64,000 nt of DNA from Pseudofulvimonas gallinarii. Its GTDB lineage: Bacteria; Pseudomonadota; Gammaproteobacteria; Xanthomonadales; UBA2363. Numbering within the stretch: position 1 is the stretch's first letter; each line of letters starts with the position of its first letter. The stretch covers positions 62,001-126,000 of the forward strand of contig NZ_SMAF01000006.1 of the NCBI RefSeq assembly GCF_004343305.1, written 5' to 3'. Below are positions 1 to 58,748 of the stretch, piece after piece. The notes under the pieces were generated by a model that did no database searches, had not been told where the DNA came from, and saw only the letters and a list, made by a program, of their open reading frames with translations. Made by a program: the position numbers and the translations under genes.

Positions 1-558
1 CACGTATGGGGTCAGGGCGATTGCGCGGCCGCATTCGGCGCCGACATCGTTGCTGATGACGCCCCAGGCAGGGTTCCAGTTGTCCTCATGCAGGCTGGCA
101 TTGACAAACGCCCCGGCCTTGGAGCCGGGGACCGCCGGTTGCGTTGCCTCAGGACAGCCCAATGCCACGCGCGGCAGCTTCAGGGCGACACTGTGCCCGC
201 AGCGCGGGGCCGGCCCCCAGGGAAACCCGGTCACCCGGTGCCGGTATTCCCATTGCTGGCCATTGCGCTTGAACAGGAACACCGCACCCAGTTTCTCGCC
301 CGGCGGATTGCCCACCACCGTGCCAGGTGCGCCGACCGCCATCCAGTCTCCGTCGATGGCGATGCTGGCCCCGAATTCCGGGCCATCGCCGCTGTCCTGT
401 TCGGGCAGGCCGTGGTAGTTGCCGGTGAGCACGGCGATTCGTACCAGGCCGTGCTCCGGCGGCGTCCCGGCATCGGCCGTCACGGCGGCCATGGCCAGGC
501 TGACCATTGATGCAAGCAACGGAAAGAGGTGGTGCGGCGGGCAGGGTCGGCGGGTCAT
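1..558 (-). CDS. FG-GAP repeat surface/secreted protein, N-terminal fragment (runs off the left edge)
   Basis: The 186 visible codons are open to base 1, so the gene continues outside the window. The protein starts with a signal-peptide-like stretch: two arginines, then a hydrophobic run (LFPLLASMVSLAMAAVTA) ending near residue 29. Two units of the integrin-alpha type follow, with phrases such as FGASIAIDGDWMAVGAPG and GAVFLFKRNGQQWEYR, which are typical of bacterial FG-GAP proteins that fold as beta-propellers outside the cytoplasm. The first ATG (558) was chosen because it gives a charged n-region. An ATG at codon 18 is possible. No clear Shine-Dalgarno sequence is seen. Its function and ligand are unknown. 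Its C-terminus, which could carry the tag seen on other secreted proteins here, is not visible. Confidence 0.75.
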   Translation of the reverse strand, partial: MTRRPCPPHHLFPLLASMVSLAMAAVTADAGTPPEHGLVRIAVLTGNYHGLPEQDSGDGPEFGASIAIDGDWMAVGAPGTVVGNPPGEKLGAVFLFKRNGQQWEYRHRVTGFPWGPAPRCGHSVALKLPRVALGCPEATQPAVPGSKAGAFVNASLHEDNWNPAWGVISNDVGAECGRAIALTPYV

Positions 559-618
559 GTCGGCGGCATTCGTGGTGGGTTCGAATGCGAGAACAGCCGG
601 AATGCCGGAAAGCGCACG

Positions 619-650
619 CCGCGGACGGCGCTTCAATGGCGCCGCCGCGG
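619..650. terminator. GC-rich hairpin downstream of glnA
   Basis: Arms CCGCGGACGGCGC and GCGCCGCCGCGG pair with one bulge around a 7-base loop. It lies just past the glnA stop on the minus strand. There is no proper T-run, so it is at best a weak or factor-assisted terminator, or an RNA 3'-end stabiliser. Confidence 0.35.
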
Positions 651-53428: not shown

Positions 53429-56038
53429 ATGAACACGAAGCGCAGTTCCCGGAAATCCGCCCGCGGCCGGCTGGCCTGGCTGGCCTGGCTGCTGTGGTGC
53501 CCGCTGCTGGCGGCGCAGAGCGTCGACGACGGTTTCGCGCCGGAAATCGACAACGGCCTGGTCCGCGTCCTGCACGAGCAGGGCAATGGCCTGCTGCTGG
53601 TCGGCGGCAACTTCACCAGCGCCGAAGGCGCCACCCACAACCGGCTGGTCAGGGTGCTTCCCGATGGCACGCTGGACAGCGGCTTCGCGCCGGATATCAG
53701 CAGTGGCACGGTGCCCACCATCTGGGCCCTGCACCAGCAGCCCAGCACCGTGCCGGGGCAAGGCAAGGTCCTGATCGGTGGCCAGTTCCAGCAGGTCAAT
53801 GGCCAGCCGCGTTCCAACCTGGCCCGGCTGAACGTCAACGGCACCCTGGACACGGCCTTCAATGTCAGCGTCGACGGCCAGGTGCGCAGCTTCGACTCCA
53901 CCATGTCGCCGGACGGCAGCGCCGGCATCATCTATCTGGGTGGCCTGTTTTCCAATGTCGGCGGCATACCGCGGCCACGCCTGGCCGCCATCCAGGCCAA
54001 TGGCAACGTGCTGACCACCTTCAACCCGCCGCTGATCTCCGGCGGCCTGGTCAGCGCCATTCGCCTGCACCGCGACCAGACCGGCGCCACCCACGGCCTG
54101 CTGGTTGCCGGCGCCTACAACATGGACGGCGAGGTGGCGAGGCTGCGCCGCGTGCACCAGGGCACCGGTGCGCTTGATACCGGATTCAACGTCACCGTCT
54201 CCGGCGGCACCACCTTCGGCAACATCATCAATGCCCTGGCTGTCCAGCCGGACGGCAAGATCCTGATTGCCGGTGACTTCGATGTCGTCAACGGCCAGAC
54301 CCGGACGATGATCGCGCGTCTGAACGTCGACGGCAGCCTCGACGACAGCTTCGTGCCGCCGACCCTCGACGGCGGGATCATGGGCGTGAGCCTGCAACCC
54401 GATGGCCGGATGCTGATCGCCGGCGACTTCACCCTCGGCGCGGTGCGCAGCCGCATCGCGCGACTCAACGAGGACGGCAGCCTGGATGCCACCTACGCGG
54501 CGCAGATCGATCCGGACCAGCCCGTCGGGGCGGTGCTGGCGCATACGGATGGAACGGCCACCTTTGCCGGCGGTTTCACCATTGTCAGCGGCCTGCCGCG
54601 GGCCCGGGTGGCGCGGCTCAACACCAGCGGCACCATCGACCAGAGCCTGATCACACCCGGCTCGACCAATGGTGGAGTGATGGCCATTGCCGTACAGGAT
54701 GACGGCAAGATCCTCGCCGGTGGCGTGTTCACCGAGTTCAACGGCCACGAGCGCCACCGCATCGTCCGCCTGCATCCCGGCAACGGCGCGGTCGACAGCG
54801 GATTCACCCCCGGCTTTGGCATCTCCGTGTATGCCATCGCGGTCATGCCGGACCGGCGCATCCTGGTCGGCGGAGCATTCAACTCCGTCAGCGGCGTCAC
54901 CCGCCGCCGCCTGGCCATGCTGCACCCCGACGGCAGTGTCGACGTCAGCTTCAATGCGCAGATCGCCGATGGCAACGTGGTCGCCATCGTGCCGCAAAAG
55001 GACGGCCGCATCCTGATCGGCGGCGATTTCACCGAGATTGCAGGAGTCATCCGGCAAAGCGTGGCCCGCCTGCACCCCGATGGCTCGCTGGACACGTCCT
55101 TCCTGCCGCCGACCAGCAACGGCATGGTGCGCGCAATCGCCGTACAGGCCGATGGCCGGGTGGTGATCGGCGGCGACTTCACCACCATGGGAGGCGGCTG
55201 GACACGCAACCACCTCGCCCGCCTCAAGGCCAACGGCAACATGGACAGCGTCATCGCCGGCACCGCCGGCGCCAATGGCGCGGTGCGTGCAATCGCCCAG
55301 GACCGTGACGGCAACCTCATCATCGGCGGTGCCTTCACCCAGGTGGACGGTTCGACCCGCAACCGCATCGCTGCCCTGGATGCCGACGGTGAACTGCTGG
55401 CGACGTTCAGCAGCGGCGCCAACAACACGGTATGGAGCATCGTGCCGCGCATCGATGGCAGCGTCTACGTCGCCGGTGCCTTCACCAGCATCGGCGGCAC
55501 GGCGCGCGGCCGGGTCGCCCGCTTGAGCAGCACCGGCGCACTGATGCCCGATTTCGATGGCAACGCGGACAACCTGGTGCGGGCGATGACCGTGCAGCCC
55601 GACGGCAAGGTGCTGATCGGCGGCACCTTCGAAACCGTGGACGGCCAGTCGCGGGACTACCTGGCGCGGCTGGCCGTGCCGCAGGCGGTGCGCCACGAGT
55701 TGCGCATCGTCGGCACCGTCCCGGTCCTGCAGTGGCTGTGGCAGGGGCCGGCCGCCGAGATCCTGCATCCGCCGCAGCTGCAGGTGTCGATCGACTGCTG
55801 TGATCACGACAGTTTCATCCCTTTCCCGGGCACCTCGGAAATGAGTGGCGGTGCGCTGGGCAACCAGCGCGTGTACTCGCTGGCCGACTTCACCGGACTC
55901 AGCGGCGTCTACTACCTGCGCACCGCCACGGTCACCGGTGATGCCCGCGGTGCCGGCACGCATGTGCAGTATTCGCCGGCCTGGCGCTTCGACGGCGGCC
56001 CTGCCTCCGACATCATTTTCGCCAACGGCTTCGACTGA
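53429..56038 (+). CDS. Secreted delta-60 repeat beta-propeller protein with C-terminal D-x-IF tag
   Basis: The ATG at 53429 has a strong GAGGAGG upstream. A basic n-region and a hydrophobic core ending PLLAAQ form a signal peptide. The 869-residue protein holds about fourteen delta-60-type repeats (DUF5122-like), each with a core like DGKILIAGDF..NGQ.R..IARLN.DGSLD..F, which fold as beta-propellers. After residue about 760 a different beta-rich region with two vicinal cysteines (SIDCCDHD) leads to the end DIIFANGFD. The same style of ending occurs on the next two proteins. Ligand and location are unknown; a surface position is inferred from the signal peptide and tag. Confidence 0.88.
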   Translation: MNTKRSSRKSARGRLAWLAWLLWCPLLAAQSVDDGFAPEIDNGLVRVLHEQGNGLLLVGGNFTSAEGATHNRLVRVLPDGTLDSGFAPDISSGTVPTIWALHQQPSTVPGQGKVLIGGQFQQVNGQPRSNLARLNVNGTLDTAFNVSVDGQVRSFDSTMSPDGSAGIIYLGGLFSNVGGIPRPRLAAIQANGNVLTTFNPPLISGGLVSAIRLHRDQTGATHGLLVAGAYNMDGEVARLRRVHQGTGALDTGFNVTVSGGTTFGNIINALAVQPDGKILIAGDFDVVNGQTRTMIARLNVDGSLDDSFVPPTLDGGIMGVSLQPDGRMLIAGDFTLGAVRSRIARLNEDGSLDATYAAQIDPDQPVGAVLAHTDGTATFAGGFTIVSGLPRARVARLNTSGTIDQSLITPGSTNGGVMAIAVQDDGKILAGGVFTEFNGHERHRIVRLHPGNGAVDSGFTPGFGISVYAIAVMPDRRILVGGAFNSVSGVTRRRLAMLHPDGSVDVSFNAQIADGNVVAIVPQKDGRILIGGDFTEIAGVIRQSVARLHPDGSLDTSFLPPTSNGMVRAIAVQADGRVVIGGDFTTMGGGWTRNHLARLKANGNMDSVIAGTAGANGAVRAIAQDRDGNLIIGGAFTQVDGSTRNRIAALDADGELLATFSSGANNTVWSIVPRIDGSVYVAGAFTSIGGTARGRVARLSSTGALMPDFDGNADNLVRAMTVQPDGKVLIGGTFETVDGQSRDYLARLAVPQAVRHELRIVGTVPVLQWLWQGPAAEILHPPQLQVSIDCCDHDSFIPFPGTSEMSGGALGNQRVYSLADFTGLSGVYYLRTATVTGDARGAGTHVQYSPAWRFDGGPASDIIFANGFD

Positions 56039-56102
56039 TCCAGCCCAAGCCGGCGCGGCAACACGCCGCGCCGGACTTCCCACCTGTGGAATGACATCAC
56101 AC

Positions 56103-57257
56103 ATGAAAGCCAACATCGTTGCATTCACCACACTGGCATTCGCTGCCGCCATCGCGACGCCGGCGTTCGCCGCCGAAGCGTCGGCGTTCGAGCGCGGCGC
56201 CACCTGGTCCACCCACAACCACGGCTGCAACGGCGGCAACCGCACCGATGCCCTGCATCGTGACCCGGATGGCACGCTGTGGGCCGGCTGCGGCACCAAC
56301 GCCACCGGCTACGGGCTGTTCCGCAGCCTCGATGGCGGCGTCACCTGGGCGGCGGCGCCGGTGTCGCCGGCCGATGCCTTCCACGAGTTCCGCGTCAACT
56401 CGATTTCGCGCGGCCACGACAATGCGCTGTACGTGGCCGGCTTCAAGCCCGGCGTGGTGCAGATGGTGCGGCGGGTGGCGACGACATCCTCGCCGCATCC
56501 GGTGACCGACACGCTCACCGGTGTCGCGCAGACCGGCCGCCAGTTCCACGTCGGCACCTATCGCGAGCTGGGCGACGGTCGCGCCATTGCCGAGGCGCTC
56601 ACCAGCACCAACCTGCTGTACCGACCCAATGCCACGGTGGGCAGCAGCGCCAGCAACTGGGTGCGCGAACTGGGCACGGTGCAGATGCTGGATATGACCG
56701 TCTACGGCGACCGCTTCTACGGTGCCGGCAGCCGCAATGTCGAGCCGCCACGGCTGTTCCTGCCGCCGCGAACCACTGCCGATCCCTACCAGTTCGAAAC
56801 GCTGGAGCTGCAATCGGGCACCGGCTGGCGTGGTGAGCTGTGGGGCATCGCCGTCAACAACCGGCGCCTGGTGGCGGTTGGCATGGACCAGGACAACAGC
56901 GTCGGCAAGATTTTCGTCGGCACGGGTGACTACTACTTCCCCGGCAGCTACGTGGAATCGTCGATGTCGTCGATCACCGGCGACGCCACCACCTGGGCGC
57001 GCGGCGCGTGCATCGCCCGCAACCGCGTCGTCGTGGTCGGCGAGCGTCATCCCATGGGCGCCGGAAGTGGCCGCGTGCTGCTGTCCAACAACGACGGTGC
57101 CAGCTTCACGGTGATCACGCCGCCGGGTGCACCGTCCAGCATCAACAAGTGCGTGATCGAGCCGGATGGAACGATCATCGTCGCCGGTGCTGGCGGTTTC
57201 GTCGGCATTCGTCAGGATCCGGACTGGATCTTCCGCAACGATTACGAGCGCCCCTGA
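56103..57257 (+). CDS. Secreted beta-propeller-like protein with variant D-x-IF tag
   Basis: A 384-residue product beginning with a clear signal peptide (MKANIVAFTTLAFAAAIATPAFA). The mature part has repeats of the BNR/Ycf48-like kind, for example DALHRDPDGTLWAGCG, GYGLFRSLDGGVTW, GRVLLSNNDGASFTVI and CVIEPDGTIIVAGAGGFVGI, which suggest a propeller. The C-terminus DWIFRNDYERP is a looser version of the neighbouring DIIFANGFD. It starts 64 bp after the delta-60 gene and precedes the heptanucleotide repeat. No enzymatic motif is visible. Confidence 0.75.
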   Translation: MKANIVAFTTLAFAAAIATPAFAAEASAFERGATWSTHNHGCNGGNRTDALHRDPDGTLWAGCGTNATGYGLFRSLDGGVTWAAAPVSPADAFHEFRVNSISRGHDNALYVAGFKPGVVQMVRRVATTSSPHPVTDTLTGVAQTGRQFHVGTYRELGDGRAIAEALTSTNLLYRPNATVGSSASNWVRELGTVQMLDMTVYGDRFYGAGSRNVEPPRLFLPPRTTADPYQFETLELQSGTGWRGELWGIAVNNRRLVAVGMDQDNSVGKIFVGTGDYYFPGSYVESSMSSITGDATTWARGACIARNRVVVVGERHPMGAGSGRVLLSNNDGASFTVITPPGAPSSINKCVIEPDGTIIVAGAGGFVGIRQDPDWIFRNDYERP

Positions 57258-57265
57258 TCGTCATC

Positions 57266-57335
57266 TGTTGCCTGTTGCCTGTTGCCTGTTGCCCGTTGCC
57301 TGTTGCCCGTTGCCTGTTGCCCGTTGCCTGTTGCC
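57266..57335 (+). repeat. Ten tandem heptanucleotide repeats (TGTTGCC/CGTTGCC)
   Basis: Seventy bases of YGTTGCC in ten uninterrupted units: four T-type, then C and T types alternating. They fill the gap between the propeller gene and the beta-helix gene and end two bases before the GGAGG ribosome-binding site of the latter. The unit length is not a multiple of three, but the array is untranslated if the ATG at 57348 is used. Confidence 0.98.
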
Positions 57336-57347
57336 CGGAGGCTTGAC

Positions 57348-58748
57348 ATGAACCCAGCGCGTTCCCGCGTTCTGCCCCTGATCCTGGGCCTGGCGCTGTC
57401 GGCGGGCAGCGCATCGGCTGCGACCATCGTTGTCGCAGCCGGCGAAACGGGCATCGCCGCCAACGGCCATTGTTCGCTGATCGAGGCGATGGAAAACGCG
57501 CAGACCGATTCCCGCGTGCATGCCGACTGTGTTGCCGGCAGTGGTGCCGATGTCATCCGCCTTTCGCCCGGCGACTACGTTCTGGCCCAGCCGCTGTCAC
57601 CGGGATCGAACACCGCGTTGCCGCATATCTCCACGCCGATGACGATCCAGGGCAACGGCAGCACGCTGCGTCGCTCCGCACATCCCTCCACGCCACCGTT
57701 CCGCTTCATGACAATGAGCGCGGCCAGCCTGACGCTGGAAGGCCTGACCTTCCGCAACGCCCGGTTGCAGACGACGTACTACTTCGATGGTGGCGCGGTG
57801 ATCTCGCAAAGCGGCGGCTCGCTGCTGGCGCGCGATGTGCGGTTCATCGACAACGGGGCCAGCAGCAACGGCCGCGGCGGCGCCGTGTTCATTGCCAATG
57901 CCAGTGGTGGTATCGGCGCCCATGCCGTCTTCGAGGATTGTCTGTTCGAAGGCAACTTCACCGATACCCTGCCGGGCCAGCACGGAAGCGGCGGCGGCGC
58001 GATCTGGATCGAAGGCGGCGAGCTGGAGATCGAGCGCTGCGCCTTCATCGACAACCGTACGCAACCGGTCGATGTGCCGCAGGCCGGCAATGGTGGTGCC
58101 CTGCACATCAGCGACCTGGGCGCCGAGGCGGGTGATGTGCCCGATGGACTCGTCAGCCAGGTGTGGGTGCGCAACAGCACGTTCAGCGGCAATCGCGCCG
58201 ACACCGCCGGCGGCATTGGCCTGCAGGTCGGCCAGGGGTTCGTCCTGTCACTGGGCCTGGAGCAGGTGACGCTGGTCGACAACCGTGCCCGCACGTCGGC
58301 AAAAGGCATTGGTGCCCATGCCGGCATGGACGCAGGGCAGGTGTTCATCCACTACGCCCGCAGCATCCTGCACGGCAATGGTGCTGGCGCCAATGACAAG
58401 GACTGCGTGAGTCTGGGCGGAATGCCGCGCGTGTACTGGGAGAGCGGCGGCGCCAACCTTCTGGCGCCGGATCGTGGTTGCACGCTCGACGCCTTCGGCG
58501 AGGATTTCGTCGACGCCGATCCGTGGGCGCACATCCAGCCGCTGCTGCATGACCACGGCCACGACCTGAAGGCCGGAAGTCCGCTGGTCGACGCGCTGGC
58601 GCTCGCCCACTGCGGCCATGGGCAAAGCCGCGACCAGCGCGGCCGCCTCCGCGGTGGCGGTCCGGGTGCCGGCGGTGCGCATTGCGATGTCGGCGCGGTG
58701 GAGTACTACGGAGACGGTGATGTCATCTTCGCCCACGGTTTCGATTGA
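57348..58748 (+). CDS. Secreted right-handed beta-helix protein (CSLREA-like / choice-of-anchor type) with D-x-IF tag
   Basis: ATG at 57348 follows GGAGG; an in-frame TTG inside the repeat array is rejected. The 466-residue product has a signal peptide (LPLILGLALSAGSASA). After it comes the phrase GHCSLIEAMENAQ, equivalent to the CSLREA motif that opens many surface beta-helix proteins. The middle is made of parallel-helix turns (LTLEGLTFRNA, FEDCLFEGN, IERCAFIDN, VRNSTFSGNRAD). The segment SRDQRGRLRGGGPGAGGAHCDVGAVE matches the choice-of-anchor block that in other phyla sits just before a sorting signal. Here it is followed by GDGDVIFAHGFD at the extreme C-terminus. This supports an anchoring role for the tag. 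Confidence 0.85.
   Translation: MNPARSRVLPLILGLALSAGSASAATIVVAAGETGIAANGHCSLIEAMENAQTDSRVHADCVAGSGADVIRLSPGDYVLAQPLSPGSNTALPHISTPMTIQGNGSTLRRSAHPSTPPFRFMTMSAASLTLEGLTFRNARLQTTYYFDGGAVISQSGGSLLARDVRFIDNGASSNGRGGAVFIANASGGIGAHAVFEDCLFEGNFTDTLPGQHGSGGGAIWIEGGELEIERCAFIDNRTQPVDVPQAGNGGALHISDLGAEAGDVPDGLVSQVWVRNSTFSGNRADTAGGIGLQVGQGFVLSLGLEQVTLVDNRARTSAKGIGAHAGMDAGQVFIHYARSILHGNGAGANDKDCVSLGGMPRVYWESGGANLLAPDRGCTLDAFGEDFVDADPWAHIQPLLHDHGHDLKAGSPLVDALALAHCGHGQSRDQRGRLRGGGPGAGGAHCDVGAVEYYGDGDVIFAHGFD

Follow-up and report, generated by a model that had tools for sequence, protein, structure and literature searches.

How the type II secretion system (T2SS) selects its folded, unrelated substrates is an open question: no conserved signal has been identified in them, and no common linear sequence (PMC11981180, PMC7949064). 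The recognition elements that have been described, such as loop 3 in the Fn3 domain of PelI and the Ig-fold of VesB, are structural and specific to their substrates; they identify the substrate to the canonical T2SS, with the GspC PDZ domain taking part (PMC7949064, PMC12369372). Loop 3 contacts GspC and GspD (PMC7949064); secretion of VesB needs the PDZ domain of EpsC, and a grafted VesB domain confers PDZ-dependent secretion (PMC12369372). GlyGly-CTERM proteins are T2SS-dependent surface proteins (PMC3237569, PMC6219818, PMC13393428). Their glycine/serine motif, followed by a transmembrane helix and a basic tail, is cut by rhombosortase (TIGR03902), and the IPTL-CTERM and PEP-CTERM signals of the exosortase systems are likewise transmembrane tripartite tails. 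The type IX secretion system (T9SS) uses a helix-free C-terminal signal for crossing of the outer membrane, a folded domain of about 70-100 residues with a machine of its own. The subject of this paper is a C-terminal peptide of about nine residues, typified by DIIFANGFD, that ends three adjacent genes of Pseudofulvimonas gallinarii in a window of 64,000 nucleotides (contig NZ_SMAF01000006.1; G000:C6:62001-126000 in a host genome of 3.45 Mb). Unlike the PelI and VesB elements, it is a common linear sequence, and the best-supported reading, which is moderately probable, is that it acts as a linear label by which proteins are recruited or sorted to the canonical T2SS of the host's order.

In its logic the tag stands nearest to GlyGly-CTERM: both are C-terminal tags found on many unrelated exported proteins with surface-type cargo in T2SS-bearing species. 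The new tag differs in having no transmembrane helix and no basic tail, and it also has no invariant nucleophile. With IPTL-CTERM and PEP-CTERM it shares its place, since in sister genomes these follow the same choice-of-anchor Q domains, but their tripartite architecture is not that of the tag. The likeness to the T9SS signal is confined to being helix-free and C-terminal, nine residues being set against a whole domain; no T9SS sorting-domain model is among the 25 most frequent families of tagged proteins (T9SS machine genes of the PorU type were not searched for). By inspection the tag also lacks the LPXTG motif, which in the sortase systems comes with a helix and a basic tail (sortase genes were not searched for).

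The shared C-terminal ending is real and far beyond chance. Searched as a DNA pattern, its strict form, [IV]-F-x-x-G-F-[DE]-stop, matches 13 times in the host genome, as against 0 matches of the reversed pattern used as control, and each of the 13 closes a long protein of exported type (choice-of-anchor Q beta-helices, DUF11-like, Kelch-like and others). In an 825 kb host sample (578 genes by a simple caller), which was partly chosen to include known tagged genes, so that its tag frequency is not the genome average, the strict motif closes the protein exactly in 12 cases (composition alone predicts 0.0008), lies at most 5 residues from the C-terminus in 6, and is internal in two. Loosening the motif brings the tagged genes of this sample to 28, DWIFRNDYERP and RIFADDFEP included. 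The refined motif is D-x-[IV]-F-x-[D/N/H/S]-G-F-[E/D] with 0-8 trailing residues; its glycine may give way to D, to S or, in a single family, to R. The ending DWIFRNDYERP of the second window protein is thereby accommodated, and comparable host-genome variants are RIFADDFEP, RIFADDFEQ and VIFADSFE. The preliminary description of this DNA had placed the motif at or within two residues of the stop; the C-terminal position stands, while the tails are longer and the glycine position is less constant than it had allowed. Synonymous codons of the tag vary freely (GGC/GGT/GGG/GGA 88/47/26/24; TTC/TTT 115/70), so that selection acts on the peptide and not on the DNA; a DNA-level repeat as the source of the tag is ruled out by the same variation. 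The two internal copies (GGPDPIFANGFEGAGAS; GQPDLIFANGFEDPTPP) are in large secreted proteins, at L249 (G000:C1:208235-210397) and L268 (G000:C2:189500-192760), where each marks a domain boundary and is followed by another domain.

The carriers are exported proteins. A crude signal-peptide test is passed by 22 of the 28 tagged host proteins, versus 165 of 550 untagged ones (30%). One of the six failures has a Tat-like start, MNRRDFLRT, and in most of the rest the start was called too far upstream, a signal peptide lying further in; in a peptidase-like protein at C2:89736 no signal peptide is seen. The Sec or Tat signal that a canonical T2SS substrate requires is thus a property of the tagged host proteins. 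Equal occurrence of the motif in cytoplasmic proteins or at random positions, which had been named as grounds for abandoning the idea of a sorting signal, is not what is found: it occupies the C-termini of Sec/Tat-exported proteins, the two inter-domain copies being the exceptions. The load amounts to dozens of exported, differently folded proteins per genome. A set of 96 tagged proteins, drawn from many genera, matches 58 families in NCBIfam and 59 in Pfam, none of them common to all (choice-of-anchor Q 19, beta-helix 11, reprolysin-like 7, delta-60 6, GSDH 4, FG-GAP 4, LRR 3, endonuclease I 2, subtilase 2, and others). Mean column identity in their alignment is 6%, and its sole invariant columns are the F, G and F of the tag. 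The consensus from 93 proteins, a set chosen without the narrow pattern but for which F, G, F and an acidic end were search requirements, is D(53%)-x-I/V/L-F-[A/R/G]-[D/N/H/S]-G-F-[E/D], with the exact end in 74. Some tagged beta-helix proteins resemble the N-terminal part of Rhombotarget A, but far below its cut-off. No family describing the tag emerged from Pfam and NCBIfam scans of the 96 proteins, tag strings matched in 5.39 million PMC papers led only to papers that are, by title and abstract, on unrelated subjects, and topic searches yielded no description of it, most subscription journals lying outside this scope; within these bounds the earlier statement that it has no named family holds.

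Strict tags occur in 98 of 250 genomes of the host's order, with up to 43 per genome and whole genera with none. Named carriers include Dokdonella, Tahibacter, Rudaea, Marinicella and Wenzhouxiangella; some metagenome bins among the carriers are labelled otherwise. A class-wide scan (274 genomes, about 180 families) yielded single matches only, near the control rate. Enrichment of the tag is thus a feature of the host's order, the remainder of the class showing background alone.

Within the order, the presence of the tag follows the canonical T2SS. All 25 tag-rich genomes inspected hold two full copies of the secretin GspD, whereas among 24 tag-free genomes most of families f12 and f7 have just one of the two kinds. 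The canonical copy joins secretins from across the class, with 100/100 support, in a tree of 44 GspD proteins; the other copy stands apart from it, is of the type of Xanthomonas-like relatives and is probably Xps-like. Canonical GspD (C8:66383-68302 in the host) lies in a gspC-D-E-F cluster, commonly with rho/trx/rhlB on one side and ftsE/ftsX on the other (names assigned from sequence). Scores of a canonical-GspD profile are sharply bimodal over the 250 genomes. Family f9, genus g9, has the canonical secretin and almost no strict tags, yet its choice-of-anchor Q domains are followed by IFNDRFEQP, VFQDRFEQP, IFRDRFEEP, VFSDRFEQP and IFSDRFDSAR, which define a variant, IFxDRFE. A pattern that admits G or R and any tail finds 7-43 tags in most well-assembled g9 genomes and 31 in the host, but none to few where the secretin is absent; the expectation that secretin-bearing f9 genomes would be tagged was borne out. 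Genomes with at least 4 tags by either pattern were taken as tag-positive, and partial secretin matches at contig ends as present, the divergent secretins of 16 f2 genomes (370-490 bits) and that of G229 (637 bits) being called absent. On these terms, 50 of 51 secretin-positive genomes are tagged versus 1 of 110 others at a completeness of at least 97% (161 genomes), 74 of 78 versus 4 of 122 at a completeness of at least 90%, and 100 of 111 versus 11 of 139 when all 250 genomes are counted. Fisher p-values for such a table take no account of relatedness; more telling is the recurrence of the contrast within each of four families, f2, f12, f7 (genus g56) and f8. In f8, a tag-rich family, the sole tagless complete genome (G019; two contigs, 4.7 Mb) has no GspD of any kind.

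Several observations on the secretin loci stand beside these counts. The loss of the tag and of all GspD in G019 makes a natural loss pair. The divergent, canonical-related secretin of f2 (about 370-490 bits, no tags) is found in G023, G039, G046, G060, G080, G085, G130 and G154, and again in G174, G214, G227, G230, G240, G242, G246 and G248; there is no PDZ-bearing GspC at the one such locus read, and this secretin perhaps belongs to a separately acquired T2SS. A tagged gene adjoins canonical gspC-D-E-F, or lies within a few kb of it, in G109 (L286), G056 (L299), G049 (L300) and G035 (L302).

The tag also stands where a known sorting signal is found in kindred proteins. After the choice-of-anchor Q domain, the same slot is filled by the tag, by an IPTL-CTERM-like helix (for example IPTLSRWGLVLLGGLMGLLGWFGFRRR) or, in two f2 proteins, by neither. 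Ends of the IPTL-CTERM-like kind, on choice-of-anchor Q and similar proteins of sister genomes, were seen at L342, L329, L331, L332, L336, L345, L347, L350 and L351, and some genomes, such as G103, use them side by side with the new tag. The many unrelated folds, the C-terminal position, the Sec/Tat export of the carriers and this slot together provide strong support for a portable C-terminal signal on exported proteins.

A mechanism can be proposed in outline. Tagged proteins would reach the periplasm by Sec or Tat and fold after inner-membrane export, the tag being exposed as an end-peptide on otherwise unrelated folds; there it would mark the folded protein for the canonical (Out/Eps-like) T2SS. 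Since the T2SS transports proteins that are already folded, and since the differently folded carriers share a brief terminal peptide, reading of that exposed peptide in the periplasm by the T2SS would fit; the co-distribution suggests the T2SS machinery, or some T2SS-dependent step, as the reader. As for the reader itself, a speculative candidate is the GspC PDZ domain, present at the canonical loci and missing from the Xps-like ones. Some T2SS substrates depend on GspC PDZ, and the canonical ligand of a PDZ domain is an extreme C-terminus (PMC12369372); XpsC is without a PDZ fold (PMC11981180). In the genomes at hand, all 17 aligned GspC proteins from canonical loci combine T2SSC and PDZ domains, and they are related to the solved EpsC, PulC and OutC. 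A PDZ profile matches 19 of the 23 canonical loci read in the host's order and none of the 17 other loci, and no Xps-like locus gave a match to a PDZ-bearing GspC; the four canonical loci without a match are probably accounted for by gene calls or contig ends. Recognition of the nine-residue C-terminal peptide by GspC PDZ as a common linear T2SS signal, which would make recruitment modular and predictable from sequence in the whole order, is put forward tentatively and is on balance doubtful.

Several facts weigh against a T2SS signal, or against its PDZ version. The link is correlative, and co-loss could reflect lost substrate families or a partner lost with the T2SS. Counting the 16 divergent f2 secretins and G229, all in untagged genomes, as present changes the table at 97% completeness to 50 of 68 versus 1 of 93. 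The secretin is present in G006, G017, G081 and G088, where either pattern finds no tag or a single one. Twelve f7 genomes (eleven without canonical secretin, none with a full-length one) hold 1-6 matches each, most of them genuine tags on protein ends, which may be relics or the sign of another reader; the draft bins G122, G181 and G047 also have tags and no secretin match, which incompleteness may explain. Elsewhere in the class the canonical T2SS is common without the tag, so the tag is not generally needed for type II secretion. Trailing residues and the two inter-domain copies misfit a classical carboxylate-dependent PDZ ligand, for which a terminal E is also unusual.

Among the alternatives, the one to be taken most seriously makes the tag a surface-anchoring or processing signal for a separate enzyme or receptor. 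Its T2SS dependence would then be indirect, the proteins having no route to the surface but the T2SS; GlyGly-CTERM and rhombosortase in Vibrio offer the parallel. That published GlyGly-CTERM proteins are T2SS-dependent surface proteins (PMC6219818, PMC13393428) lends weight to this account, as do the slot after choice-of-anchor Q and the few tags kept by f7 genomes without a canonical T2SS. The expected partner did not appear. The preliminary description had looked to a co-occurring processing gene; proteins clustered from 40 tagged-gene neighbourhoods (up to 20 kb) contain no recurrent partner, nothing of the kind being adjacent to tagged genes, and the machine that does co-occur is the canonical T2SS. 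Rhombosortase is excluded as a necessary partner, TIGR03902 being over cut-off in 2 of 48 genomes, both tag-negative, and in no tested tagged genome; so is exosortase (PF09721), of which the host has none and which is absent from 11 of 25 tag-positive genomes. The helix, basic tail and invariant nucleophile missing from the tag also count against anchoring. Of the earlier proposal of a surface-sorting or attachment signal, the portable signal on exported proteins survives and attachment loses ground, with no sortase-like partner in view; surface attachment is possible, as second choice to a linear signal tied to the T2SS, and anchoring by a separate partner is rather unlikely. The co-occurring canonical T2SS favours secretion or recruitment, or else anchoring after the T2SS.

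The remaining explanations are weaker still. A hydrophobic-acidic C-terminal peptide of the length bound by PDZ domains might be a periplasmic quality-control or chaperone handle, one that shields the protein from a tail-specific protease or delivers it to one, or that retains the substrate pending its export; periplasmic DegP, DegQ and DegS carry PDZ domains, and related folds were seen in the comparison with GspC. Such proteases are near universal, and do not account for restriction to one order and to the canonical T2SS, which makes this explanation improbable. A functionless relic of shared ancestry or of gene-end recombination might be read from the clustering of tagged genes in places (host contig C6) and from paralogy among some tagged proteins. 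The folds have nothing but the tag in common, codons vary freely, consensus positions are invariant in alignments of 6-24% mean identity, and a whole genus has switched together to the R variant; a relic is accordingly a most implausible source.

A tag that tracks the canonical secretin across an order would make T2SS substrate selection a testable question. A linear address label has never before been found for the T2SS, and this tag may be one. If it is, the T2SS secretome of these bacteria is readable from sequence, and a small portable export or display tag is at hand; should it prove to be an anchor, it would represent a sorting signal free of any helix and served by an as-yet-unnamed enzyme.

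The features of the window itself are collected in Table 1. The three endings are exactly those first reported, and profile searches bear out the reported difference in fold. The first product scores 223.5 bits with TIGR02608 (delta-60 repeat; cut-off 76.5) and has 10-13 delta-60/DUF5122 stretches. The block said to precede sorting signals elsewhere is indeed present in the third product as a choice-of-anchor Q domain directly before the tag, a borderline assignment (25 bits with NF041518, cut-off 25; 24.9 with a longer start). A signal peptide is found in all three by the crude test.

Table 1. Tagged genes, tags and the choice-of-anchor Q domain in the window (window positions)
Feature	Position	Strand	Evidence
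Delta-60 repeat/DUF5122 beta-propeller protein, exported, 869 residues, Sec signal peptide, tagged	53429..56038	+	Translation; TIGR02608, PF17164; crude signal-peptide test
Tag DIIFANGFD and stop	56009..56038	+	Translation; genome-wide pattern match
Propeller-like protein, exported, 384 residues, signal peptide, tagged	56103..57257	+	Weak, sub-threshold BNR/Reg_prop matches; crude signal-peptide test
Variant tag DWIFRNDYERP and stop (G->D, F->Y, two-residue tail)	57222..57257	+	Translation
Beta-helix protein, exported, CSLREA-like start and choice-of-anchor Q domain, 466 residues, tagged	57348..58748	+	Translation; NF041518, PF02415, PF13229
Choice-of-anchor Q domain, residues 405-453, immediately N-terminal of tag	58560..58706	+	NF041518
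Tag DVIFAHGFD and stop	58719..58748	+	Translation; genome-wide pattern match

The AlphaFold model of the beta-helix protein is poor from residue 311 to the C-terminus and that of the propeller-like protein over its whole length, so that the conformation of the tag cannot be placed from them. Between the second and third genes (window 57250-57345) a short repeated DNA unit gives rise to a spurious N-terminal extension, LLPVACCLLPVARCLLPVACCPLPVARR, of the third open reading frame. Two more three-gene tagged groups flank the window, one just past its end (C6:127337-134348) and one before and across window 1-636 (C6:53562-62636; L273, L274). Nine tagged genes thus lie inside 81 kb around the window; the others are single and scattered.

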